Of a stretch of 64,000 nt of DNA, positions 3,742 to 61,720 are shown in pieces. The stretch covers positions 62,001 through 126,000 of the forward strand of contig JAJTXY010000007.1 of assembly GCA_021463865.1 (NCBI GenBank), read 5' to 3'. Numbering within the stretch: the stretch's first letter is position 1; each line of letters opens with the position of its first letter. The notes under the pieces were generated by a model. That model did no database searches. It worked only from the letters and a program-made list of their open reading frames with translations, and had not been told where the DNA came from. This DNA comes from Anaerolineae bacterium (GTDB lineage Bacteria > Chloroflexota > Anaerolineae > Aggregatilineales > J027). Position numbers and translations under genes: made by a program.

Positions 3742-3855
3742 GTCCCCGCCAATACCTGCAAAAATGACCCAAAGGTACTACGCGACCTTTTTCTCCAATT
3801 TCGCTCGGTATAGCTGAACGCACGATTGGAACTTGAAACTATTTGGAGGAAACGT

Positions 3856-5529
3856 ATGTCGCAAAAGTTGCTAGGCCATTGGAGGTCTATCAGTATTGTG
3901 TTGGTTGCAATCGCCTTGCTCGTGGCAATGGCTGTACCCGCCGTTGCCCAAGAGGGGGGAACCAATTTTACACTGCGCGTCGTGGGTATTTTGGAAGAAC
4001 TCAATACGGATAATGTCGTCGTTTCGGGGCAAACCTATGATACTACCAATGCCACTGTTGCCGCCGATCTCGCAGTCGGGGATTTAGTGCAGGTGATATT
4101 CAGCCTCGATTTAGCGACGGGTGAGCGTACTGCCACCTCAGTCACCCTGTTTGAACTGCCGCCGTTCTCCACACCGGAACTCAATCTGGTGGGTGAATTA
4201 GAAGACATCGGCGCGGACTATATCGTAGTGTACGGCCTCACCTTTGATACCACCAATGCCGAAATGGATGAAGGCTTGGCGGTAGGTGATCTGGTGCGGG
4301 TGCGTTTCACGGTTGCCGAAGACGGCTCATTTGTGGCCTCGGAAGTCCACGAGACTAACCTGCCGACTCCACCCGTGCCGCCAACGGGTGAACTGGTCGT
4401 CTATGGTCGTTTGGGTGCCATTGACGCCGATTCCGTGACGGTTGCCGGACGTATTTTCGACACCACCAATGCCGAAGTCGAAGCAGGGCTTGAGGTGGGG
4501 GATTGGGTGTTGGTCACATTCACGATTGCCGAAGATGGGTCATTAATCGCCAGCAGTGTCATATTGGCGGAGTCGCCCCAACCGCCCCAACCTCCAACAC
4601 CACCTCAGCATCCCCATGTGATGGTGGGTGAATTGGAGGCCCTCAATACAGATAGCGTGGTCGTCAATGGGCAGACCTTCGTTACCACCGATGCCGAGCT
4701 TGAAACAGGCTTGGCAGTGGGGGACTGGGTGCGCGTCGAATACACCATTGCGGAAGATGGCTCATTTGTCGCCAGCAAGGTCGCTAAATTACAGTTCCCA
4801 CAACGCCCGAACATCTTCACCACCATCGGCGAACTAACCGAACTCAACACCGACACAGCAGTCATTGGTGGCCTGACATATGATATTACGGAGGCGACAA
4901 TTGAGGCAGGCGTCGAAATTGGCGATTTGGTGCGTGTGACGTTCCGTATCGAGAGCACCGATTCCACCGTTACTCTTGTCGCCATCGAAATCCAAAAACT
5001 TGCCACCCTGCCCAATCCCCCCAATCACCCGTCGGTTGGTCAACCACCTATCAATCAACCCCCGGTGAACCAACCACCCGTTAATCCGCCGCAAAATGGT
5101 GCACCGCAGAATCCTGCCAATCCACAGAATCCGCAGAATCCCGGAAGTCCAGCAGTACAGCCACCCGCCAACCAAACTCCCGTTCCGCCGAATAACTCCT
5201 CGAATATCGCCATGACTGTCATTGGTGTATTGGAGGCGCTTGGGGCGGACAGCATCACGGTTAATGGGCAGGTTATCAGCACTGTCGGTCTGAATGTCGC
5301 CCCCGATTTGCAGGTTGGCATGACGGTGCGGGCTGAAATTCGGATTATGAACGGAGTCATGGCTGGTTATGTCATCATGGTGCAGAACCAAGCCAATAAT
5401 CCCAACCAGCCACAAGTCTCGACTGTGCTGCCACCCGTTAACCAACCACCGAATGCGCCATCACCGCAGATGCCAACCATTCAACCGCCGAATAATCCAT
5501 TTCCGAATGGACAGCAGTCTCCACGCTGA
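3856..5529 (+). CDS. Secreted protein with six DUF5666-like repeats
   Basis: The 557-residue product starts after a TGGAGGA site at 3844-3850; an ATG at 3826 has no such site. A Sec signal peptide (about residues 5-35, ending VPAVAQ) is followed by five consecutive ~65-residue repeats with the pattern GELE.L..D.VVV.GQTFDTTNA...GLAVGD.VRV and ending ASxV. A linker of about 65 residues rich in Pro, Asn and Gln then leads to a sixth repeat and a Pro/Asn-rich tail. DUF5666 is a small beta-barrel domain of unknown function, common in surface proteins. The gene lies between two ECF sigma operons and could be a target of either; no function is assigned. Confidence 0.85.
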   Translation: MSQKLLGHWRSISIVLVAIALLVAMAVPAVAQEGGTNFTLRVVGILEELNTDNVVVSGQTYDTTNATVAADLAVGDLVQVIFSLDLATGERTATSVTLFELPPFSTPELNLVGELEDIGADYIVVYGLTFDTTNAEMDEGLAVGDLVRVRFTVAEDGSFVASEVHETNLPTPPVPPTGELVVYGRLGAIDADSVTVAGRIFDTTNAEVEAGLEVGDWVLVTFTIAEDGSLIASSVILAESPQPPQPPTPPQHPHVMVGELEALNTDSVVVNGQTFVTTDAELETGLAVGDWVRVEYTIAEDGSFVASKVAKLQFPQRPNIFTTIGELTELNTDTAVIGGLTYDITEATIEAGVEIGDLVRVTFRIESTDSTVTLVAIEIQKLATLPNPPNHPSVGQPPINQPPVNQPPVNPPQNGAPQNPANPQNPQNPGSPAVQPPANQTPVPPNNSSNIAMTVIGVLEALGADSITVNGQVISTVGLNVAPDLQVGMTVRAEIRIMNGVMAGYVIMVQNQANNPNQPQVSTVLPPVNQPPNAPSPQMPTIQPPNNPFPNGQQSPR

Positions 5530-5540
5530 TCAACTTGTAT

Positions 5541-5564
5541 GGGGACATAGCCTCCTATGTCCCC
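5541..5564 (+). terminator. Hairpin after the DUF5666 gene (terminator-like)
   Basis: A perfect 10-bp stem (GGGGACATAG with its complement) has a four-base loop, eleven bases after the stop codon. There is no T-run, so it may stabilise the mRNA end rather than terminate alone. Confidence 0.5.
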
Positions 5565-5679
5565 CCTCCTAATTTATTAGGCTTTGGTTATTGGCATCGC
5601 TGTAGCAACAGGGGACAATGGAAGGAAGTGATCGCGTGTGGCAGTGGCAAGACGAGAGTATCAATCACAGAGGTCAGCA

Positions 5680-6279
5680 ATGATTTTTCTGGTGCTGCCA
5701 GAACTAAGCGAAGAAGATGCGCTGATGGACGAAATGCGGGCAGGTAGTTCTGATGCCATCCTACACGTCTATCAACTCTATTTCCGACCCATTTATGAGT
5801 ATATTCGACTGCGTGTGGGAGATGCCCGGATCGCGGAGGACATCGCCAGCGAGGTTTTTTTGCGCTTGATTGACGCCGTGCGAAAACGCCAAGCTCCGCG
5901 TCACAGCCTGCGCGGATGGTTATTCAAAGTGGCTCGCACACTGATTGCTGCCCAATATCATGAGGCCAAGAAGCTGCCGACCACAACACTCGAAGAATGG
6001 ATGCCTAGCCCAACAGACGACGACCCTGAAATCACACTGATTCGCACTATCAGCCTTGAACGTGCCCGTAGCGCGATTCGCAATTTATCGGCGGATCAGC
6101 AGGAAGTGTTGATTTTGCGGTTTGGGCAGCGCCTCAGTTTGCAGGAAACCTGTGACATCATGGGGCGTAGCATGAGTGCCGTAAAATCGCTGCAATTACG
6201 GGCGATTGAATCCCTACGCAAACATCTGCGCGAGATGGGCGAACTGGGGGATGTACGTTTGGAGGGTCGCCATGTCTGA
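5680..6279 (+). CDS. ECF RNA polymerase sigma factor (module 2)
   Basis: This is a 199-residue sigma-70 family factor. Region 2 is at about residues 18-90 (YQLYFRPIYEYIRLRVGDARIAEDIASEVFLRLIDAV) and region 4 at about 130-185 (LSADQQEVLILRFGQRLSLQETCDIMGRSMSAVKSLQ). AGAGGT precedes the ATG at 5680; a GTG at 5638, after GGAAGGAAG, would add 14 residues. Its stop overlaps the start of the next gene by eight bases. It is much closer in sequence style to the factor at 22529 than to the one at 486, and both are followed by the same kind of membrane protein. Confidence 0.92.
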   Translation: MIFLVLPELSEEDALMDEMRAGSSDAILHVYQLYFRPIYEYIRLRVGDARIAEDIASEVFLRLIDAVRKRQAPRHSLRGWLFKVARTLIAAQYHEAKKLPTTTLEEWMPSPTDDDPEITLIRTISLERARSAIRNLSADQQEVLILRFGQRLSLQETCDIMGRSMSAVKSLQLRAIESLRKHLREMGELGDVRLEGRHV

Positions 6280-7264
6280 TCGCAATCTCGGGGCCATTTT
6301 TAACGATTGTATAGACCGCCTTGCTGCTGGTGAGACGATTGAGGACTGCCTGCGGACTTATCCCCGTCATGCCGCCGCCCTGCGTCCGATGTTGGAGACG
6401 GGGGAATTGGTCAATCGGGCACGAGTCGTTGGTCAAGAAGCTGTGCAAGTCGAAATGCGGGTACGAGAGCGTCTGCTGCGTGAATTGGATAACCCCACCC
6501 GCGATGGTGTAGTTTTGACCTTACCCCGCCGTCAGAATACCCAAGTGCTGCGGCTAGTGGCAATTTGGCTGGCCGTGCTTTTCTGCCTCATCAGCACCGG
6601 GGTAGGGGGGACATGGGTCGCGGCGCAATTGGGCCTGTTTGATGATAACCACGAGGGGCAGGAGGAGATTCCGCAAACCGCGACTTTTACCCTTACTCCG
6701 ACTATCACGCTGACCGCCACCGCGTCGCCAAGCCCAACCAGTACCCCGACGGTGACGATGACCCTTACCCCGACGGTCACGTTATCACCGACCCCGACCA
6801 TCACCCAAACGCCGGAGGGTGATTATGCGCCCTCAACGATCTTGCCACAACCGAATGGAGTACAGGGACCAAACGCGACACCGGCAGGCCCGAATAATCC
6901 TAACAATGGCGCTAATCCGCCCCAAAACGCCGGGACGCCGGTTGCCCCACCCCTTAATCCGCCGATCAATAACCCGCTGCCGACTCTGACGCCTACCCGA
7001 ACACTACCTATTCCGCCACAGGGCCAACAGCCACCACAGTTTTCACCCACCTTGCCCTTATGGGTCATTCAAACTATGACCGCCATCGTCCAGACACTTA
7101 CGGCTCTGCCACCACACAATCAGCATCCGATGAACCCAACCTATCTCACACCGCCGCCGCCGCCACCCAATTATCCGACGCCTATGCCGCCTCCGAGCAA
7201 TCAACTGCCGAACGGACAGCCGCCTAATATGCCGCCAACGTCGTGCCCACCAAGGTGTGGATAG
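6272..7264 (+). CDS. Membrane protein coupled to sigma module 2, probable anti-sigma factor
   Basis: This 330-residue protein starts at an ATG overlapping the sigma stop, after GGAGGG. Residues 5-45 form a helical segment (IFNDCIDRLAAGETIEDCLR, then YPRHAAALRPMLE). The same pattern occurs at the N-terminus of the protein at 23095, which also follows a sigma gene. One membrane segment is near residues 95-120. After it comes a low-complexity outer part: Thr/Pro repeats (TLTPTITLT, SPTPTITQTP), then Pro/Asn-rich sequence to the end. No zinc finger is present. Sigma-binding by the N-terminal helices is inferred from the conserved arrangement, not from a known domain. Confidence 0.75.
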   Translation: MSDRNLGAIFNDCIDRLAAGETIEDCLRTYPRHAAALRPMLETGELVNRARVVGQEAVQVEMRVRERLLRELDNPTRDGVVLTLPRRQNTQVLRLVAIWLAVLFCLISTGVGGTWVAAQLGLFDDNHEGQEEIPQTATFTLTPTITLTATASPSPTSTPTVTMTLTPTVTLSPTPTITQTPEGDYAPSTILPQPNGVQGPNATPAGPNNPNNGANPPQNAGTPVAPPLNPPINNPLPTLTPTRTLPIPPQGQQPPQFSPTLPLWVIQTMTAIVQTLTALPPHNQHPMNPTYLTPPPPPPNYPTPMPPPSNQLPNGQPPNMPPTSCPPRCG

Positions 7265-10578: not shown

Positions 10579-13500
10579 ATGAATTATTCCCTCCGACGCT
10601 GGTCAAGGTTTGTGTTGGTCGGTTTTTTGATGACCTTACTTTCCCTAAATTTTAGGGAAACTGGATTTGCCAGCACCCCCTATCCGCAAACGGCAACATC
10701 ACAGCGGGTAATCGCCAATCCCGTCGCTTCGATTATCAATCCCCAACAGGCCGATGAGGAATTGGCGGCATTTTTGAGCCAACATCCTGCCGGGCGGGTC
10801 AATTTAATGATCGAGTTGGAGGGCAATCCGGCGCTGCTGGCTGGATTAGATGCCAATGGTACTTATGTTACAGCCGATCTCGTGACTCGTTTGACTCAGC
10901 AGGCCGCTAACCTCCAATCGCAGGCCCAATTGACCACGAACTTGCAGGCGATGGGGGTAACGATTCTCGGTACAACCCAACTGGTCTTTAACGGCATGGT
11001 CGTTGAAGCCGATGTTAGTCAAATCGAGGCTATCCGCGCTCTGCCAAACGTGCGGGCCGTTTTTCCCGATGTCATTTCCCGAACGGACAACGTGACGACG
11101 GTGCAATACATCGGTAGCGCCCAATTTTGGCAAAATACGGGTGGGCAAACCGGGCAGGGTATTCGCATCGGCATTATTGACACAGGCATTGATTATCGCC
11201 ATCCCAATTTTGGCGGCACTGCGAATTATGCTGGCACGGATACGACGACCTTAGCCGACGGGGGGTTTCCAAGCGCTAAAGTCGTCGGTGGCACGGATTT
11301 CGCTGGCGATGTATTCCCCAATCTCGTGCCCGACCCCGACCCGATGGAGTGCGTGGGTGGCAGCGGACATGGCACACACGTCGCCGGGACAGCCGCCGGA
11401 TTGGGTGTCACCACCGCCGGGGCGACCTATGCTGGGCCATATAACACCTCCATCTCCGGCAATACCTTTCGCATCGGGCCGGGGGTCGCGCCCAACGCCT
11501 CGCTCTATGCGCTCAAAGTTGGCTGGTGTGATGCTTTTGTCTCCAATATCGCCACTACCCAAGCATTGGAATGGGCGGTAACAAACGGGCTGCATGTCGT
11601 CAACCTGTCGCTAGGCGCTTCCTATGGTGCGGCGGCGGATATGACCTCGATGGCGGCAGATGCGGCCTCGGTTGGCGGAGTGGTCGTGGTAGCGGCGGCG
11701 GGCAATTCTGGGGATACCTTCTACATCCATGACTCACCGGGGGTCTCCTCGCGGGCCATTAGTGTTGGGGGTAGCCGCGAAGTTGAGGGCGTGGATATGG
11801 TCACGCCAACAACCACCGCCAGCTTTGGGGCACTCCCCGCCACATTTGGACCCCATTTGAACAATACTGGCCCGATTACTGCAACGGTGATTTATGTTGC
11901 CGCACCTGCCTTTGGCTGTGGCGTCATTACCCCCGTTGCCACCCCTTGGATCGCGCTGATTGATCGTGGGGGGGCGTGCAATTTCGTTCAAAAAGTCCAA
12001 AACGCACAGACGGCGGGGGCGGTTGGTGTGATTGTTGCCAACAGCACGACGGGCGTCTTAACACGTATGTCGGGCACGACTACCACCGTGACTATTCCGT
12101 CGGTAATGGTCTCCAACGCCGATGGGTTGACCCTACGAAGTCAATCGGGGGTCGCCACCGTCACCCTACGCGGCACCAGCGGCGGGGAAACGATTTTTGC
12201 TAACACCTCACGCGGGCCAGCTATCGGGATCAATGGGGCGATTCTGCTGAAGCCTGATTTGGTTGCGCCGGGGGTCGGGGTGGTGTCCAGTCGGGCCTAT
12301 GGGACAGGGGCTAATCAATCCCTGACCCTTAGCGGCTCGTCCATGTCCACGCCGCACGTCACTGGGGTGATTGCCTTACTGCGGCAGCGCTATCCGGGCT
12401 TAAGTGTGGCCCAATTGAAGGCGCTCGTCATGAACACCGCCACCAACGACATTTTCACGGGTTTTGGCGGGACGGGCAATCGTTATCCCCCCAGTCGTGT
12501 CGGGGCAGGGCGGGTGGATTTGTTGAATGTGGTCGCGGCCTTCAATAACGAAGTCATCGCCTTTAACGCCCTCAATCCTGAACAGGTCAGTGTCTCGTTT
12601 GGGGTGGTCGAGGTCGTCGGCGCGACGGCGATTTCCCGCAGCATCACCCTGCAAAATCTCTCGAATAATGATCGCTCGTATGCTGTCAATTTTGATACAC
12701 TGGCGGATTTGAACGGCGCGTCAATCACCGTATCCCCGGCGAGTGTCACCGTACCTGCGGGTGGGACGGCCTCCATTACTGTCACCCTGAGTGCCAACGC
12801 CGCCGCTATGCCCCAACCCAATACACCCCATCCCACTGTAGCGACCACCCAAGTCGGCCAGACGCGCAGTTTTGTGGCGGAGGAATCGGGTTATGTCGAA
12901 TTGGTGCCGATTCAAGTGCCCGGCCCATCGCTGCGTGTTCCGGTCTATTCCGCGCCGCGTCCGGTGTCGGGAATGCTGGTCGCCAATAATCCACTGGTGA
13001 TTGGGAATCTCAACACGGGCACAATGCCACTGCAATTAACGGGTGCGGGGGTTAATACAGGCGCGACGTATCCCGCCGATGTGATTTCGTTGGTTGCTCC
13101 TTTTGAATTGGTGCAAGAAAGCGGCGACGAACCCGATGCCCAAGCCTATGAAAATCACGCCGATATTCAATATGTCGGTATCACCAGCGATTACGAGGCG
13201 GTGGGGTCGGTCACTGGCACAACCCTCTATTTCGCCATCTCGACATGGGCTGAATGGAGTACGCTCGGCGGCGGGTCCTATCTCAACGGTGTATTTCCGA
13301 ACACCACCCCCGCTGGCAATCCCTTCCGTTTTCAAGGCACACCGGGGGATGTGTCATTTGAAGTGCAGTTTGATACCAATAACGACAATGTGGCCGATTA
13401 TGCCCTGATTACATGGGACTTGGGTGATTTTCAACGCACGGTCAATGGCACAACCGACCCCAACAGCGATGTGTTTATTGCTGTACTGGTCAATCTCAAC

Positions 13501-14469
13501 ACGGGGGTGATTAATGGCATCAACGAAGGTGCCGTCAATGTCTTGCCTGCCAGCACTCGCACCACCTATCCGTTTAACACCAATGTCCTCATCTTGCCTG
13601 TAGACGCGGTGGATTTGGGCCTGAGTGATGCTAATGCCGTCGTGCGCTATCGGGTAGCGGGTTATAGCGTGCCAACCGGTCGAGTCAATGAACCCGCCGG
13701 GTATATTGATTTCGCCCCCGCAACGGGTTTTGCGCCCTACAATGTCGCCGCCCCGGTCTACAGTTTCACCGATGCCAACGCGATTGCCAGCGGGCCTCTC
13801 ACCAATTCCCTGACCTATGAAGATTTGCCGGGGCAGGTCGTTCCAGTGGATTTTGATGTAACAGGCCTCGCTGATCCGCTGCCGTGTATCCTGTTGATTC
13901 ACCATCACAATGCACGCGGTTTCCGACCTGAACGGGTGTGTGTCTCGCGCACGGGTACAACGCCCCAGACCAATGATCTGGTGATTAGCAAAGTCGGCGC
14001 ATTGGAGGCAGGCGGGTTGGGCTTGCCGGGTGAATCGTTGACATGGGTCATTACGCTGACGAATGTCACCACCCAGACATTCAATAATTTGACTATTACC
14101 GACACTATCAGCCCGGATTTGCGGGTGGTCAACGCGACGACGGCCTCCGGTACGGCTGCGGTGAGTGGGCAAACCGTGACCTTTACCATTCCAAGCCTTG
14201 CACCGGGCCAGACCATCCAGATGCAAATCATAACGACGGTTGCCACCAGTCCGGCGAGTGGCGTGTTTGTCAACGACGCCACTGTGACCGCCAATGGCAT
14301 TACACGCACCGCCCATGCTGAAGTGCTGGCCGCGACGGGTCTCCCCGCGACGGGTTATCCGCCTGTGGAAAAGGACACATCTCTGCCAATCCTACCTATA
14401 GCGATTTTAGGATTCCTGATGATAATTGGGGTGGGGCGCTGGCTCAAATTGAAACAAGGGTGGGGATAA
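10579..14469 (+). CDS. Cell-surface subtilisin-like serine protease (S8) with PA and DUF11 domains
   Basis: This 1296-residue exported protease has a signal peptide (about residues 8-32) and an I9-type propeptide region (about 50-160). The S8 domain has catalytic Asp201 (IDTGID), His264 (GHGTHVAG) and Ser588 (GSSMSTPH), with oxyanion AGNSGD. A PA domain is inserted at about 400-530. Beta-rich modules and a DUF11 domain (about 1140-1240) follow. The C-terminus reads LPATG, a spacer, a membrane helix and a short KLKQ tail, like a sortase-type or anchoring signal. Its stop codon overlaps the start of the ATPase gene by one base. It probably digests extracellular protein; a joint role with the two downstream genes is possible but unproven. 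Confidence 0.92.
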   Translation: MNYSLRRWSRFVLVGFLMTLLSLNFRETGFASTPYPQTATSQRVIANPVASIINPQQADEELAAFLSQHPAGRVNLMIELEGNPALLAGLDANGTYVTADLVTRLTQQAANLQSQAQLTTNLQAMGVTILGTTQLVFNGMVVEADVSQIEAIRALPNVRAVFPDVISRTDNVTTVQYIGSAQFWQNTGGQTGQGIRIGIIDTGIDYRHPNFGGTANYAGTDTTTLADGGFPSAKVVGGTDFAGDVFPNLVPDPDPMECVGGSGHGTHVAGTAAGLGVTTAGATYAGPYNTSISGNTFRIGPGVAPNASLYALKVGWCDAFVSNIATTQALEWAVTNGLHVVNLSLGASYGAAADMTSMAADAASVGGVVVVAAAGNSGDTFYIHDSPGVSSRAISVGGSREVEGVDMVTPTTTASFGALPATFGPHLNNTGPITATVIYVAAPAFGCGVITPVATPWIALIDRGGACNFVQKVQNAQTAGAVGVIVANSTTGVLTRMSGTTTTVTIPSVMVSNADGLTLRSQSGVATVTLRGTSGGETIFANTSRGPAIGINGAILLKPDLVAPGVGVVSSRAYGTGANQSLTLSGSSMSTPHVTGVIALLRQRYPGLSVAQLKALVMNTATNDIFTGFGGTGNRYPPSRVGAGRVDLLNVVAAFNNEVIAFNALNPEQVSVSFGVVEVVGATAISRSITLQNLSNNDRSYAVNFDTLADLNGASITVSPASVTVPAGGTASITVTLSANAAAMPQPNTPHPTVATTQVGQTRSFVAEESGYVELVPIQVPGPSLRVPVYSAPRPVSGMLVANNPLVIGNLNTGTMPLQLTGAGVNTGATYPADVISLVAPFELVQESGDEPDAQAYENHADIQYVGITSDYEAVGSVTGTTLYFAISTWAEWSTLGGGSYLNGVFPNTTPAGNPFRFQGTPGDVSFEVQFDTNNDNVADYALITWDLGDFQRTVNGTTDPNSDVFIAVLVNLNTGVINGINEGAVNVLPASTRTTYPFNTNVLILPVDAVDLGLSDANAVVRYRVAGYSVPTGRVNEPAGYIDFAPATGFAPYNVAAPVYSFTDANAIASGPLTNSLTYEDLPGQVVPVDFDVTGLADPLPCILLIHHHNARGFRPERVCVSRTGTTPQTNDLVISKVGALEAGGLGLPGESLTWVITLTNVTTQTFNNLTITDTISPDLRVVNATTASGTAAVSGQTVTFTIPSLAPGQTIQMQIITTVATSPASGVFVNDATVTANGITRTAHAEVLAATGLPATGYPPVEKDTSLPILPIAILGFLMIIGVGRWLKLKQGWG

Positions 14470-15641
14470 TGGCACGCCTGACATCCATTAATATCAAGGG
14501 GTTTCGGCCCTTCCAAGATTTCACGGCGCAACTTGGGCCACTAGAGGTCATTGTTGGCGCGAATGGGGCAGGCAAGTCGGCACTGTTCGAGTTTCTCAAA
14601 TTTCTGCGTGACAGCACCCAACATGAAATTCCACCGGGGATTATCGAAGGGTATATAGGACAGCAGATTTTTAATCGCTTTTTCAATCTTGAGTCCATCA
14701 TATGGACTATCGGTGTGCAGTTAACACAACCAGATGTGCTGAATTATTCTTGCACCCTACATGGACCTTTAGGAAAACCAGCAATTGCATTCGAGCATGT
14801 AGAAATAGGTTTAGATTCTACGAATTCTAAAACTATTATGCAAAGGAGTGCTGATTTTGCCAATGCCGTTACAGTAGTTTTTTCCTATCCTTCGGAAACT
14901 GAAACAACAGAAGCTTATTTAGCGACTCCCAAGCCGAATCAGACCGCTTTGAGTCTAATCAACTCGCCGCAGTTAGATGTGCTGTATCAGCTTCGGGAGG
15001 CTATTTCCAATTGGGGATTTTATAGCGCATATGGATTAAAAAGTAGTAATATCCGCCGTCCCGTCTTAATTGAACAAACACCTACCTTAAGCGAAGATGC
15101 TGGTAATCTCAGTGCGGTCTTATTTTTCCTGATGACCGAACACCGCTATGCCTTTGATGAAATCCAAAATTTGATGCGCCAAATCGTGCCCGCTTTCACG
15201 GAATTGACGGTCAAAGCGCGAGGTGGCCCCGGTGAGATTATGGCGTTTTGGCGTGAGGGCGACCAAGAATTGACGCTTGCCGATGTCTCTGATGGTATTT
15301 TGCGTCTACTGTGCTGGATGGTGCTGTGTGTGATGCCCAATCCGCCGTCGCTAATCTGTATTGATGAACCCGATCAAGGTGTTCATCCACGCACCCTTCC
15401 CATTCTGGCGGGATTGTTTCGGCGGGCCAGTCAGCGTACCCAAATTTTGCTGGCGACCCACAACTCCTATTTCCTGACCCAATTTGATTTTGGTGAAATC
15501 GCGGTGATGCGGAAGAAGGATCGTAATATCGAGTTTCTAAAACCCGCCCATTCGCAGGTCTTGATAGATATGCTGGCGGATTTTGGCTCTCAAGAAGTGG
15601 AACAACTCCATCGCAGTGACGAACTGGAGTTACTGCCTTGA
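14469..15641 (+). CDS. AAA family ATPase (OLD/RecF-like, ABC-type fold)
   Basis: The 390-residue protein has Walker A GANGAGKS at residues 30-37, Walker B LICIDEPDQGVHP with Asp299-Glu300, and a switch histidine in LLATHNSYF near residue 330. This is the SMC/ABC-like ATPase arrangement found in OLD nucleases and their split relatives. There is no TOPRIM domain in this chain. The next gene, overlapping by one base, encodes a DUF4276 protein that may supply it. Pairs of this type are often placed near defence genes; a role in phage or plasmid defence is inferred. The middle of the gene (about 14700-15120) is more AT-rich than its surroundings. Confidence 0.88.
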   Translation: MARLTSINIKGFRPFQDFTAQLGPLEVIVGANGAGKSALFEFLKFLRDSTQHEIPPGIIEGYIGQQIFNRFFNLESIIWTIGVQLTQPDVLNYSCTLHGPLGKPAIAFEHVEIGLDSTNSKTIMQRSADFANAVTVVFSYPSETETTEAYLATPKPNQTALSLINSPQLDVLYQLREAISNWGFYSAYGLKSSNIRRPVLIEQTPTLSEDAGNLSAVLFFLMTEHRYAFDEIQNLMRQIVPAFTELTVKARGGPGEIMAFWREGDQELTLADVSDGILRLLCWMVLCVMPNPPSLICIDEPDQGVHPRTLPILAGLFRRASQRTQILLATHNSYFLTQFDFGEIAVMRKKDRNIEFLKPAHSQVLIDMLADFGSQEVEQLHRSDELELLP

Positions 15642-28648: not shown

Positions 28649-28842
28649 ACACGGGGCTAATGACGTTTAACCTATTATTTCGGTAATCACCATCCCCAGC
28701 CCCACGCCTCCAAAGCATTAGGGAGGGGAGGAAATGCCGTATTAAAGACCTTCCCTTATTGCGATGGGGAAGGGCTTGGGATGGGGACGAATTACCGCGT
28801 TTAAAAGTTAAAGAGCATAAGCCGCCGTGCTGAAGCTAGTTA
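28649..28842. mobile_element. Family A repeat split by a family C element
   Basis: The left part of a family A core (CACGGGGCTAA, 28649-28660) and its right part (TAAGCCGCCGTGCTGAA, from 28817) are separated by about 155 bases. These contain a family C element with CGGTAAT...ATTACCG ends (28681-28797) and CCATCCCC/GGGGATGG-type arms. The TA at both junctions suggests insertion into TA. These elements fill most of the 28627-28968 gap; no gene is visible there. Confidence 0.6.
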
Positions 28843-29470: not shown

Positions 29471-29569
29471 ATAGAACCCCATCCCAAACCCTTCCCCAAA
29501 CATAGGGAAGGGCTTAAAAACAAGGATTTCTCCCCTCGCTAATGATTTTGGGGATGGGCCGGGGGAGCG
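29471..29569. repeat. Intergenic repeat family C copy
   Basis: CCCCATCCCAAACCCTTCCCC, with the complementary GGGAAGGG close by, then a CTCCCCTC segment and GGGGATGGG closing the element. The same arms occur at 28681, 33451, 52105 and 52736. Confidence 0.65.
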
Positions 29570-33450: not shown

Positions 33451-33546
33451 CATCCCCACCCCCGACCCCTCCCCACCGAGTGGAGAGGGGAGAAAAACCT
33501 GTATTAAAGCCCTTCCCTTTGTTAGGGGAAGGGTTTGGGATGGGGT
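33451..33546. repeat. Intergenic repeat family C copy
   Basis: CATCCCCACCCCCGACCCC at the left, GGAAGGGTTTGGGATGGGG at the right, with an inner CTCCCC/GGGGAG hairpin. It sits between the Hsp70 and HEAT-repeat genes. Confidence 0.7.
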
Positions 33547-33626
33547 TCTGCACCGCCAAGTTATTTTGTTTAAGCATATCAGTCGGCGTACAACAGAAAT
33601 GATCTTCCCAAAAGGAGCGTGCAAAA

Positions 33627-52104: not shown

Positions 52105-52168
52105 GTCCCCATCCCAAACCCTTCCCCATCGCAATAGGGAAGGGCTTCCAGACAAGATTTTCGCCTGA
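52105..52168. repeat. Intergenic repeat family C, half copy
   Basis: TCCCCATCCCAAACCCTTCCCC and the complementary GGGAAGGGC hairpin arm, as in the copies at 29471 and 33451, but without the second half. Confidence 0.65.
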
Positions 52169-58381: not shown

Positions 58382-59332
58382 TCAGGGCATGGGCAAGGAA
58401 ATGAGGTCGGCGGCCTTGCGTTTAGCATCTTCGGGACGGCGGTCATAGCGGCGGGTGGTGTTGACATCGGCATGACCTAAAATCCCCGCCACCGTCACAA
58501 TATCGGCGCCGCGATCCAACATATCTCCGGCAAAGGTACGACGAAAATCGTGTGGGCTGAAATCGCGCACCCCGGCTTGGTGGGCACGCTTGGCAAGAAT
58601 GTCATAGATGCTCTGCGGGGTGAGGGAGTTCAGGGTGATATGCCCCCCCTTGCGGATGACGGTCAACAGCGGCCCGTCGGTGTCCCCACGTAATTCCAAC
58701 CAGCGTGTCAGATAGAAGCGAGCCGATTCGGGAACATAGACAGCCCGTTCTTTCCGCCCTTTGCCATGAATGACCAGACGGCGGGTCGAGGTGGCATAGT
58801 CCTCGATTTGCAGTCGCACGACTTCGGCGCGGCGCAACCCCGTCGCCCGCAAAATGGCGATCAGGGCGGCGTCACGGATGCCGAGCGCGGTGGCATCCAG
58901 ATTACACGCCCGAAAGAGTTCGACAATTTCTCCAGCGGTCAGTTCACGTCCGGCGGGGAGGGTGGTGTTTTTGACATTAGCAACGTCAGTGGCGCGGTGG
59001 TAATCCTCGGCAGACATTAGCCCCAACTTCCAACACTCTTTTAAGACACCCCGTAGTGCTGCCAGCATAACATTGACGGTGGCAGGTTTGTAGTCGAGTT
59101 CGAGCAGGTGGGTACGAATCATGGCGGTGTGGGCATAGCGCAAATATTCCCATTGAAATTGGAGGGCGTCGAGGTCGGGGGCGATCATTTTGGCGATGGT
59201 GTCGAGGGCGTGGTGCATGGTGCGTCGGCTGTGTTCGGAGGGTTTGCTGGCAATAAAGATCGCGGCAGGATTTTGATCGAGAGAGTCAATGGCCTGTAGG
59301 TGTAACATAAGATTAAAAATATCATCTTCCAT
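58382..59332 (-). CDS. Tyrosine recombinase (XerC/D-like integrase)
   Basis: The 316-residue recombinase has a SAM-like core-binding domain (about 20-125) and a catalytic domain (about 140-305). Catalytic residues are Arg in TGLRRAEVVRL, Lys in HGKGRKERAV, His-x-x-Arg in PHDFRRTF, His in LGHADVNTT and the nucleophile Tyr in RRYDRR. The set is complete, so it should be active. It is not next to a tRNA, and no attachment-site repeats or phage genes are seen. Neither the ATG at 59332 nor that at 59347 has a good ribosome binding site. Confidence 0.9.
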   Translation of the reverse strand: MEDDIFNLMLHLQAIDSLDQNPAAIFIASKPSEHSRRTMHHALDTIAKMIAPDLDALQFQWEYLRYAHTAMIRTHLLELDYKPATVNVMLAALRGVLKECWKLGLMSAEDYHRATDVANVKNTTLPAGRELTAGEIVELFRACNLDATALGIRDAALIAILRATGLRRAEVVRLQIEDYATSTRRLVIHGKGRKERAVYVPESARFYLTRWLELRGDTDGPLLTVIRKGGHITLNSLTPQSIYDILAKRAHQAGVRDFSPHDFRRTFAGDMLDRGADIVTVAGILGHADVNTTRRYDRRPEDAKRKAADLISLPMP

Positions 59333-59477
59333 AACTAGCATTATCATAGATAATTATAGCGCATAAATTGAAATTTTGAACATGATGGCCCACACGTAGA
59401 GTTGGGCTGAGAATCAGCAGCGACCTAACTTTCCAGAAGAAATGTTCTGGTACAGGACTGTCGCACTATTCAAACTC

Positions 59478-59510
59478 ACCCAAACGCCTTAAGGGTGAAA
59501 GCGTTTGGGT
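59478..59510 (-). terminator. Strong hairpin after the peptidase operon
   Basis: ACCCAAACGC and GCGTTTGGGT arms (10 bp), 15 bases past the stop of the small gene. No T-run. A shorter CCAGAA/TTCTGG hairpin lies nearby. Confidence 0.5.
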
Positions 59511-59524
59511 AAGCGAAAGCCCCT

Positions 59525-59887
59525 TCAAAGCGCTTGATTGGTCAGCAAAGGCCAATCGGGAACGGCCTGCCCCTGCCAAGCCAACCGAAACGTCTCTGGG
59601 ATAGGTGAGCGATAGGGCGGGAAAAAATTACCCTCTATCTGCTCCATGTTGCCTGTCTCAGGTTCGATAAAAAGAAAACGGGCGGGATGTGACCAATTCG
59701 CTTCGGGTTGCAAATCCACAAACGCTAGGACGACTGAGCTATCCACCACCCGTGTCCCCCGATTAAACGGCACTTCGTCCCCTGCCTCATAGATCCGCTT
59801 GTCTAGGTATACGACGCTCGTTTGGAGTTCTGGCTCACTCAGGCTATCGCGGGCCACTGCCACCAATTGATCCCAATCTAGTGTCAT
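59525..59887 (-). CDS. Small protein homologous to the N-terminal domain of the adjacent peptidase
   Basis: The 120-residue soluble protein aligns with residues 20-115 of the peptidase at 59948. The shared core is VLAFVDLQPEANWSHPARFL against VMVFADDMPLANWAHPCRYL, and both have FFPPY/LFPPY about 20 residues further on. GGAAGG precedes the ATG. It is 60 bases downstream of the peptidase and on the same strand. It lacks the catalytic domain, so it could be an inhibitor, a prodomain mimic or a cofactor. Family not recognised. Confidence 0.75.
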   Translation of the reverse strand: MTLDWDQLVAVARDSLSEPELQTSVVYLDKRIYEAGDEVPFNRGTRVVDSSVVLAFVDLQPEANWSHPARFLFIEPETGNMEQIEGNFFPPYRSPIPETFRLAWQGQAVPDWPLLTNQAL

Positions 59888-59947
59888 GTCAAGGCCTTCC
59901 GATTGTTAGGCAATTCATCAAAACGATGCTACTCGGCCACCTGCCAA

Positions 59948-61336
59948 CTATTTTTGCTGCTGTCCAGCCCGTCGAACAATGGCAGACGCACGCCGCACGA
60001 TCATTTTATCCAGTGCAGCATATTCTGGCTCATATTCATCCGCCAATTTTTCCAATTCGGGTAATGCAGCTTCGACCCGCCGATAAAATTCCTCGGGTTT
60101 GACCCGTTCCCAAATTGGCTCGAACAGACGAAATACCTCATAGTAAATCGGGAATTTGATCCATGCCCAAGAGATACCCAAGTGGCAACCACGCGCCCCA
60201 TTTGAGGAGACGCTGAAATTCGGCGTATCGTGTGGATGGTGAATCGAATCGGCATAGTTATAGGCTTCGGCGGCGGTCACGGTACCATTATTATTCGTGT
60301 CGGGGTCGCTGACCAAAGCATTGCCATAGGGGTCAGCCCCGGCCATCGCTGCAATCCAGTCTCGAGCAAAGGGATCAAAATGTGCTCCACCAATCGAGGT
60401 TTGGGTTGCAATGGCGGCGGATGCCACACTCGTATAACTAGCGGGGCTGTTATTGATAATCGGCTGATTGAATCCGCCTGCAAAACATTGCTCCATCATG
60501 ACGACAAGGCAACGGAATCTGGGCAGTTCGGCTAATTTGGCCGCAAAATCACTTGCCAGATAGTCGGCTCCATAACAACATAACACCGATTCCGAACCGC
60601 TCGTCGTGCCGTGATTATTGGTGTGAATCAGCAAGCTATCATTTGCCTTTAGGCGTTTTTTGAGATCATCCAACGCATTGTTGAGTTCAGTTTTACTGCC
60701 TGCCGCATTGACGGGCATCTGATAGGCCGTGTTGTCGCCGGGCCATGTCGTCGCGGGTTGTGGGTTGCCGCTATAGTTGAGGGTGCCATCGTAATTCAGC
60801 ACATAGATGTTTGCGGCTGGGACACCATAGACGCCGCGTAAGGTGCGGTACAAAAATTCGAGGTCATTGGTGTGCCGATTGTTGGAATCGCCTGAAAACA
60901 AGATGGCATAACGATTGCCCCATCGGATGGGCCAGCGCAATTCAAGGCGGGGTTTCACCGGATAGTAAGCAAGTTCTGCATACTTGATGGGTTGATGAAA
61001 TGCGGTATAGGTGCGGGGAGTCTCTTTTGCATCCATATAGGGCGGAAAAAGGGCATCCACTGTGCGATACAACTCACCCGATTCCGCATCATGGAGCAGA
61101 TAGCGACAGGGGTGCGCCCAATTTGCGAGTGGCATATCATCGGCAAAAACCATCACGGTATCCCGGTCTAGCTTAATTTGCTGTTGGCGGGCTTTGATAG
61201 ATGTGTTACGGGGCAACACATCCCGCTGGAGATAGAAATTAGTGGTATGAACCTCGGAATAGTTGCTTTGGCGCAGCACGGTCTCCTGCACTTTGCGGAA
61301 AAAAGTGCTGGGTTTGGTAGAGGGTTGGTCTGGCAT
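59948..61336 (-). CDS. Legumain/caspase-like (clan CD, C13-type) cysteine peptidase with EF-hand-like loop
   Basis: The 462-residue protein has an N-terminal domain (about 20-120) shared with the small downstream gene. A clan CD peptidase domain follows (about 145-400): YAILFSGDSNNRHTNDLEFLYRTL begins the fold, then His242 in TNNHGTTSG and Cys284 in MMEQCFAGGF. The 42-residue His-Cys spacing matches C13 legumains more than caspases. Residues 346-357 (DTNNNGTVTAAE) match an EF-hand calcium loop, which hints at calcium control. The C-terminus (about 405-462) is helical. No signal peptide, so it is cytoplasmic. AAGGAGG precedes the ATG. Role in regulated proteolysis or cell death is inferred. 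Confidence 0.82.
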   Translation of the reverse strand: MPDQPSTKPSTFFRKVQETVLRQSNYSEVHTTNFYLQRDVLPRNTSIKARQQQIKLDRDTVMVFADDMPLANWAHPCRYLLHDAESGELYRTVDALFPPYMDAKETPRTYTAFHQPIKYAELAYYPVKPRLELRWPIRWGNRYAILFSGDSNNRHTNDLEFLYRTLRGVYGVPAANIYVLNYDGTLNYSGNPQPATTWPGDNTAYQMPVNAAGSKTELNNALDDLKKRLKANDSLLIHTNNHGTTSGSESVLCCYGADYLASDFAAKLAELPRFRCLVVMMEQCFAGGFNQPIINNSPASYTSVASAAIATQTSIGGAHFDPFARDWIAAMAGADPYGNALVSDPDTNNNGTVTAAEAYNYADSIHHPHDTPNFSVSSNGARGCHLGISWAWIKFPIYYEVFRLFEPIWERVKPEEFYRRVEAALPELEKLADEYEPEYAALDKMIVRRASAIVRRAGQQQK

Positions 61337-61720
61337 ATGTGCCTCCTTATAGAGTCATTGCGTGTCTCTATCTCTATATAAAGGGTGTCAACAGGTTGTT
61401 TATCACGTCCCCTAAGCGTTAATCGGGCCACGCTCACGAAAAGCGGCGACAGGGAGAGTCCTTATGTGAAATGAATGCGTGTTGATCAGACTGTGGGTAA
61501 GTTGCTAGGTAGCGAAAATCCACCAGCTAATACTCCGAGTGTAGTATGCAAAAGGCGTGCTGCCGCCCTATAATTATCTTAAGCCTGATCCTCATCGGTG
61601 TTTAAGTGTGTCAGATGAGTGGCGGATTTTGCTTGTTGACACAAGACGATGATTCTACTGTTCTCCCAGCGGTTTTCTCAGCACGGCAATGATATGAAAT
61701 TAACGAAAATTGATATTAAG
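61337..61720. other. Gap between peptidase and cydA
   Basis: No gene is visible. It must hold the peptidase promoter at its left end; a TTGACA at about 61635 has no convincing -10 partner. The AT-rich right end leads into the cydA regulatory region. Confidence 0.4.

Follow-up and report, generated by a model that had tools for sequence, protein, structure and literature searches.

A legumain-type peptidase gene paired with a free homologue of its N-terminal domain in bacteria and an archaeon

Legumains are studied in eukaryotes, as enzymes of the lysosome or vacuole that in plants have a part in cell death. The window analysed here (the whole 64,000-nucleotide stretch of Anaerolineae DNA, numbered from its first letter) encodes a legumain-type cysteine peptidase and, after a gap of 60 bases on the same minus strand, a small protein that corresponds to the N-terminal domain of that peptidase and to nothing else in it (Table 1). 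This arrangement raises the question of why a protease should be encoded next to a free relative of one of its own domains, and whether the two genes form a unit. A paired, mobile prokaryotic form would offer a simple genetic system for clan CD protease control and would add a new domain family without a solved relative. Such pairs could also yield legumain inhibitors, or proteases and ligases specific for Asn, and may represent a class of conflict modules that are built on a protease and comprise only two genes. No earlier description of the pair was found in the literature searched, outside which most subscription journals lie.

Table 1 Features of the peptidase-partner locus in the window
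Feature	Position	Strand	Basis or remark
C13 (legumain-type) cysteine peptidase, 462 aa	59948..61336	-	First gene of pair; ORF and PF01650, E 8.5e-9
Free N-domain partner, 120 aa	59525..59887	-	Second gene of pair; ORF; conserved family
Peptidase N-terminal domain (residues 25-109), homologous to free partner	61010..61264	-	
Conserved N-domain loop DDMPLANWAH (peptidase residues 66-75)	61112..61141	-	Alignment of 24
Catalytic His242 codon	60611..60613	-	24/24; Pfam and PDB alignments
Catalytic Cys284 codon, within MMEQC	60485..60487	-	24/24
EF-hand-type loop DTNNNGTVTAAE (peptidase residues 346-357)	60266..60301	-	Sequence
Conserved loop of partner, DLQPEANWSH (residues 58-67), including Asn64	59687..59716	-	Alignment and model
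Inverted repeat, possible terminator, directly past small gene	59475..59513	-	Stem ~16, loop ~7
Cassette	59428..61417	-	94% identity with L014, unrelated flanks; 61417 is also the homology end versus L013

The peptidase and its free partner

The first-pass annotation of the locus had recognized a legumain- or caspase-like peptidase with a His242/Cys284 dyad, and both observations hold. Residues 142-361 match Pfam Peptidase_C13 (PF01650) at 35.8 bits against a curated cut-off of 22.8, and plant legumains match the peptidase by sequence (E 5e-6). The best fold match of its model is legumain (5obt; Z 16.9, rmsd 2.9 over 177 residues), followed by PIG-K (Z 15.7), metacaspases (14.8 and below) and caspase-7 (11.7), a ranking in which neighbouring Z values overlap and which rests on a moderately confident model (pLDDT 65.7). 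All 24 paired peptidases aligned have His242 and Cys284, and also the other residues of the H-G and E-x-C dyad motifs, Gly243 and Glu282. The zwitterionic S1 pocket of legumain consists of Arg44, His45, Ser216 and Asp231 (PMC4357240). R154 and H155 of the window peptidase align with Arg44 and His45, and S314 and D326 are the probable equivalents of Ser216 and Asp231, by motif only; these four positions are conserved in 24, 23, 24 and 23 of the 24 peptidases, respectively. The S1-pocket residues of legumain therefore appear to be conserved, and since these candidate residues are kept, the peptidase is likely to cut after Asn.

The window peptidase thus shares with legumain, or vacuolar processing enzyme (C13), its Pfam family, the HG and ExC motifs, the nearest solved folds and the aligned Arg and His of the S1 pocket. 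Unlike legumain, however, the family is bacterial and archaeal, mostly lacks a signal peptide and is genetically linked to a free copy of one of its domains, and where legumain has a short propeptide the window peptidase has a beta-rich N-terminal domain. Neither window protein has a signal-peptide-like start or a hydrophobic N terminus. The C-terminal 60-90 residues of the peptidase are helical in the low-confidence model and were compared with the helical prodomain of legumain (activation peptide/LSAM); among relatives this part differs greatly, some having a short helical tail and others long extensions of repeat or CARDB-like type (named by eye). The EF-hand-like loop noted at first pass, DTNNNGTVTAAE, is present in the window peptidase and in 19 of 24 relatives. 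It is absent from five others (L034 and L113-L116) that nevertheless keep the pair, so a calcium-tuned switch, as had been suggested, is so far unsupported as a defining feature.

The small protein is homologous to the N-terminal domain of the peptidase (N-domain), with 28-30% identity (E ~1e-8 in single-sequence searches, per genome) and a profile-profile (hhalign) probability of 99.4 (E 3.2e-21). Its model (pLDDT 88.7) comprises two helices and seven strands, and the order of helices and strands is the same in the N-domain of the peptidase model. Both the homology claimed at first pass and the structural similarity on which that claim had been staked are thereby borne out. Residues Y27, F56, D58, P61, N64, W65, H67 and P90 are identical in all 24 partners. 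The segment bracketed by D58 and H67 is predicted to form a coil between strands 52-58 and 67-74, and in the corresponding loop of the N-domain D66, P69, W73 and H75 are invariant (24/24) and N72 nearly so (23/24). The partner has no match in Pfam, NCBIfam, PHROGs or PADLOC, the N-domain has no Pfam relative, and the domain profile finds no sequence relative in the PDB. In fold searches with the domain, PDB matches never fell below E 0.19 or exceeded Z 3.2, and viral models gave nothing useful. As modelled, the domain is without a convincing fold match, which does not by itself prove a new fold. The inverted repeat past the small gene was missed by a terminator pattern scan because it has no T-run.

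Distribution, age and mobility of the pair

The association of the two genes extends well beyond the window. A search of the peptidase against 84,980 species genomes yielded 24 loci, and the partner adjoins the peptidase in 22 of these, in at least five bacterial phyla; both genes are intact and adjacent in 21. One locus has a peptidase broken by stops and frameshifts beside an intact partner (L036), one has an intact peptidase and no partner within its 9.6 kb contig (L027), and one has a frameshifted peptidase and no partner (L029). Hosts of the pair include Chloroflexota, Nitrosomonas and other Pseudomonadota, Chlorobiaceae, other Bacteroidota, Desulfobacteraceae and Terriglobia; relatives 94-97% identical to the window are labelled Chloroflexi and Anaerolineae. 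In the archaeon Methanomethylovorans hollandica the pair resides on plasmid pMETHO01 (L040), where the small gene (6537-6872) is unannotated, being missing from the gene table. When the domain profile alone was run against draws of 300-400 genomes per phylum, pairs emerged in five of six further genomes (G455, G1083, G976, G992 and G1328), along with one strong single match, a secreted protein of T9SS type encoded close to the start of its contig (G948). The co-occurrence elsewhere that the first reading of the locus had left to be checked is therefore found, although strong domain matches are patchy (2/398, 7/345 and 2/307 genomes of the draws). Gene order varies: the peptidase comes first, often with a 4-base overlap that suggests coupled translation, or the partner does (L028, Bacteroidota, L115/L116, L136 and the archaeon). 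No other neighbouring gene is generally conserved around the pair.

In a tree of 48 domains, which has few columns and whose finer forks are unsure, the N-domains form one clade apart from the partners (support 96/95), with the exception of the long-branched N-domain of L092. This separation places the duplication before the spread of the pair. By this phylogeny the duplication is ancient, and the partner did not arise lately from the N-domain of the peptidase beside it. Both genes are under purifying selection (dN/dS 0.04-0.29; 0.09-0.18 for the partner between the three genomes of the genus), and together the tree and these ratios rule out an annotation artefact or a recent local duplication. 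Pairwise distances among catalytic domains correlate with those among partners (r 0.60) and among N-domains (r 0.85), and in neither case was a value as high reached in 2000 permutations.

The boundaries of the conserved DNA coincide closely with the two genes. The window and L014, from the same genus, have 1,990 bases in common and nothing on either side, and homology to L013 ends at the same upstream point and continues for 4.7 kb downstream. DNA-level similarity over the pair was also seen between L020 and L021 (both Chlorobiaceae), between the Propionivibrio-labelled L015 and the Methylococcaceae L018, and between the archaeal L040 and L136 from the Desulfobacterota draw. In these comparisons the pair behaves as a horizontally moving cassette; no terminal inverted repeats or target duplication were recognized at its ends. 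A tyrosine recombinase gene (58382-59347, minus strand) lies downstream of the window pair; its membership of the unit is not supported, as it is common to L013 and absent beside the pair in L014. We also note a short dispersed repeat near several gene ends (L013:2218-2280; window near 33485-33547, 29475-29541, 28700-28786 and 52107-52162) that is common to the window and related genomes.

Possible action of the free domain

An inhibitor or subunit role for the free domain, as first suggested, is plausible. Our leading interpretation, which we hold tentatively, is that the free domain acts in trans on the legumain-like protease, most likely inhibiting it through substrate mimicry, and that the two constitute one mobile unit. 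In the mechanism that we infer, an intracellular legumain-type protease and a free paralogue of its beta-rich N-terminal domain would travel together, and the free domain would bind the catalytic domain and keep the protease inactive. The invariant Asn-Trp-x-His loop would sit in the Asn-specific active site as a substrate mimic, and the protease would be released on a stress or invader signal. In gingipain, an Arg in a loop of the prodomain occludes S1 (PMC4357240), and mycocypins block legumain via a strictly conserved P1-Asn loop, backed by exosites (PMC9579014). By analogy, the invariant Asn in the predicted loop of the partner suggests the same trick, with the Asn64 loop as a putative substrate mimic. 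Gingipain R (C25) is likewise a clan CD enzyme, and its large N-terminal prodomain inserts a P1-like residue, carried on a loop, into S1 (PMC4357240). This prodomain acts in cis and is removed, however, and gingipain belongs to another peptidase family and has no free prodomain gene; the likeness drawn here is one of mechanism. Mycocypins and type 2 cystatins embody the same idea, inhibition of legumain by a P1-Asn reactive loop (PMC9579014), but are not co-encoded with the enzyme and may be unrelated to the partner in fold.

Two variant loci show the pair in a split and in a probably secreted form. In L143 (G1518:C320, from the Planctomycetota-phylum draw) the peptidase starts at the catalytic domain, without an N-domain, and a separate domain gene precedes it with a 4-base overlap. 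An ATPase matching Septu PtuA (E 2e-46) precedes the domain gene and a Schlafen-type helicase gene follows the peptidase (operon at 3808-6234). The stop-start overlap looks natural, with an assembly frameshift possible. Since domain and catalytic part are on separate genes here, the domain can act in trans. In L092, from the Nitrosomonas-genus draw, the pair is divergent, the peptidase has a dockerin match and both proteins have hydrophobic, signal-peptide-like starts, so both would stay in the same compartment.

Retention of the pair across genomes, the trans-capable split form and the distance correlation favour the inhibitor model, and a broken peptidase beside an intact partner (L036) is what an inhibitor would allow. 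Counting against it, the loop recurs in the N-domain of the peptidase itself, which leaves two candidate inhibitors for one active site, and L027 has an intact peptidase without a partner on its contig. The motif-based placement of S314 and D326 and the pLDDT of the peptidase model also weigh against it, as does loss of the loop Asn in distant relatives. In these relatives, which are mostly secreted, Gly, Arg, Ser, Asp or Gln takes its place. Loop Asn accompanies EQC, GQC or MQC at the catalytic Cys, and Arg accompanies DAC in L140, a tally that is suggestive with far too few cases for a claim. Large proteins with a related N-domain before a diverged caspase-like region are encoded in L042 (G183), L118 (G377:C147), L140, L144 and L145, and L042 seems to have lost the His and Cys positions. 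Stand-alone distant domains with Arg in place of the loop Asn occur in L141 (5014-5982) and L142 (4841-5362), and no C13 peptidase was detected in the stretches fetched around them.

Biological role and competing explanations

A possible, if rather doubtful, explanation is that the pair is an anti-phage or toxin-antitoxin unit, in which the protease would kill or arrest the infected cell, the free domain would be its antidote or sensor, and phage copies would serve as counter-defence. Two adjacent or overlapping genes, one of them small, that are mobile and patchily distributed have the genetic layout of a toxin-antitoxin pair, and particular loci add to this. The operon of L143, with its PtuA-like ATPase, might be a protease-containing version of a Septu-like system, judging by its gene content. 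A Fic/Doc gene (L115:5888-6283) lies just upstream of the pair and AbiEi/AbiEii (13278-15001) downstream, and a TIR gene lies near L114. Patchiness, cassette behaviour and the contexts of L143, L115 and L114 would fit a conflict or toxin-antitoxin role. However, AAA ATPases of the L143 type are common, the neighbours of the pair are mostly housekeeping genes, and PADLOC (2023 set) has no family for either gene at E up to 1. The cell-death module envisaged at first pass is so far not supported, as defence or toxin-antitoxin genes are found close to only a few of the loci. A general defence-island location is likewise unsupported, most loci having ordinary neighbours.

Homologues on phage-labelled contigs are also in line with a defence role. 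The N-W-x-H domain is encoded in L037/L038 (5512-6204; 99.98% identical to each other) and in L039 (5539-6186), which represent two distinct groups, and it is recognized at E ~1e-11 by a profile built without these proteins, in a small search set. No C13 catalytic domain is present in the stretches fetched, and the phage searches found no peptidase. The phage-encoded domain proteins could be decoys. The most elaborate scenario, a mobile bacterial and archaeal legumain-type death or defence protease whose detached prodomain paralogue would be a substrate-mimicking antidote, with the antidote domain taken up by phages as counter-defence, strikes us as improbable.

We regard it as unlikely that the free domain is instead an obligate structural or sensing subunit that activates, oligomerizes or targets the peptidase, either by pairing with the peptidase's own N-domain or through a ligand shared in the conserved D-P-N-W-H loop. 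Both domain copies conserve this loop, as such a subunit would have it, and if the domain is essential, the split form in L143 must use the free copy as a subunit. The effector-associated domains (EADs) of bacterial conflict systems offer a precedent, being small domains common to a caspase-like effector and a second gene and thought to join effector and partner by homotypic contact (PMC7159879). In EAD systems, however, the second copy is part of a larger fusion with a core NTPase or another component, and copies that are neighbours are most closely related to each other, whereas the free domain of the window stands alone and is anciently diverged. No NTPase is linked to the window pair, and across the loci a sensor or NTPase gene is not generally linked to the pair; L143, with its PtuA-like ATPase, is the sole exception.

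The inhibitor reading must also be set against one in which the free domain is a substrate, cleaved or ligated by the peptidase after the loop Asn to give a product that acts as a signal, to which we assign little probability. The loop Asn is invariant among the partners, and legumains cleave after Asn and can ligate (PMC4357240; PMC4506564). Against this, the loop is short and, in the model, lies between two core strands, and the Trp and His around the Asn are equally fixed, which cleavage alone would not need.

That the pair serves an extracellular contractile injection system, either as its cargo or as an accessory, is very improbable. In Nitrosomonas a Pvc16_N gene lies directly downstream of the pair with a DNRPEAAAQ-type protein nearby, and among 23 records that contain the pair or relatives of it, 10 have a Pvc16_N gene. 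Such genes are equally common in relatives without the pair (21/61 and 28/61 genomes), for which reason the system is rejected as a general link, and Nitrosomonas relatives keep Pvc16_N and the next gene without the pair. In Nitrosomonas (L016, L017, L019 and L035; 7875-9365), the Pvc16_N gene makes up a unit together with a conserved 286-aa gene, whether or not the peptidase pair is present, and beyond this unit L016 encodes a DNRPEAAAQ-type protein of 484 aa.
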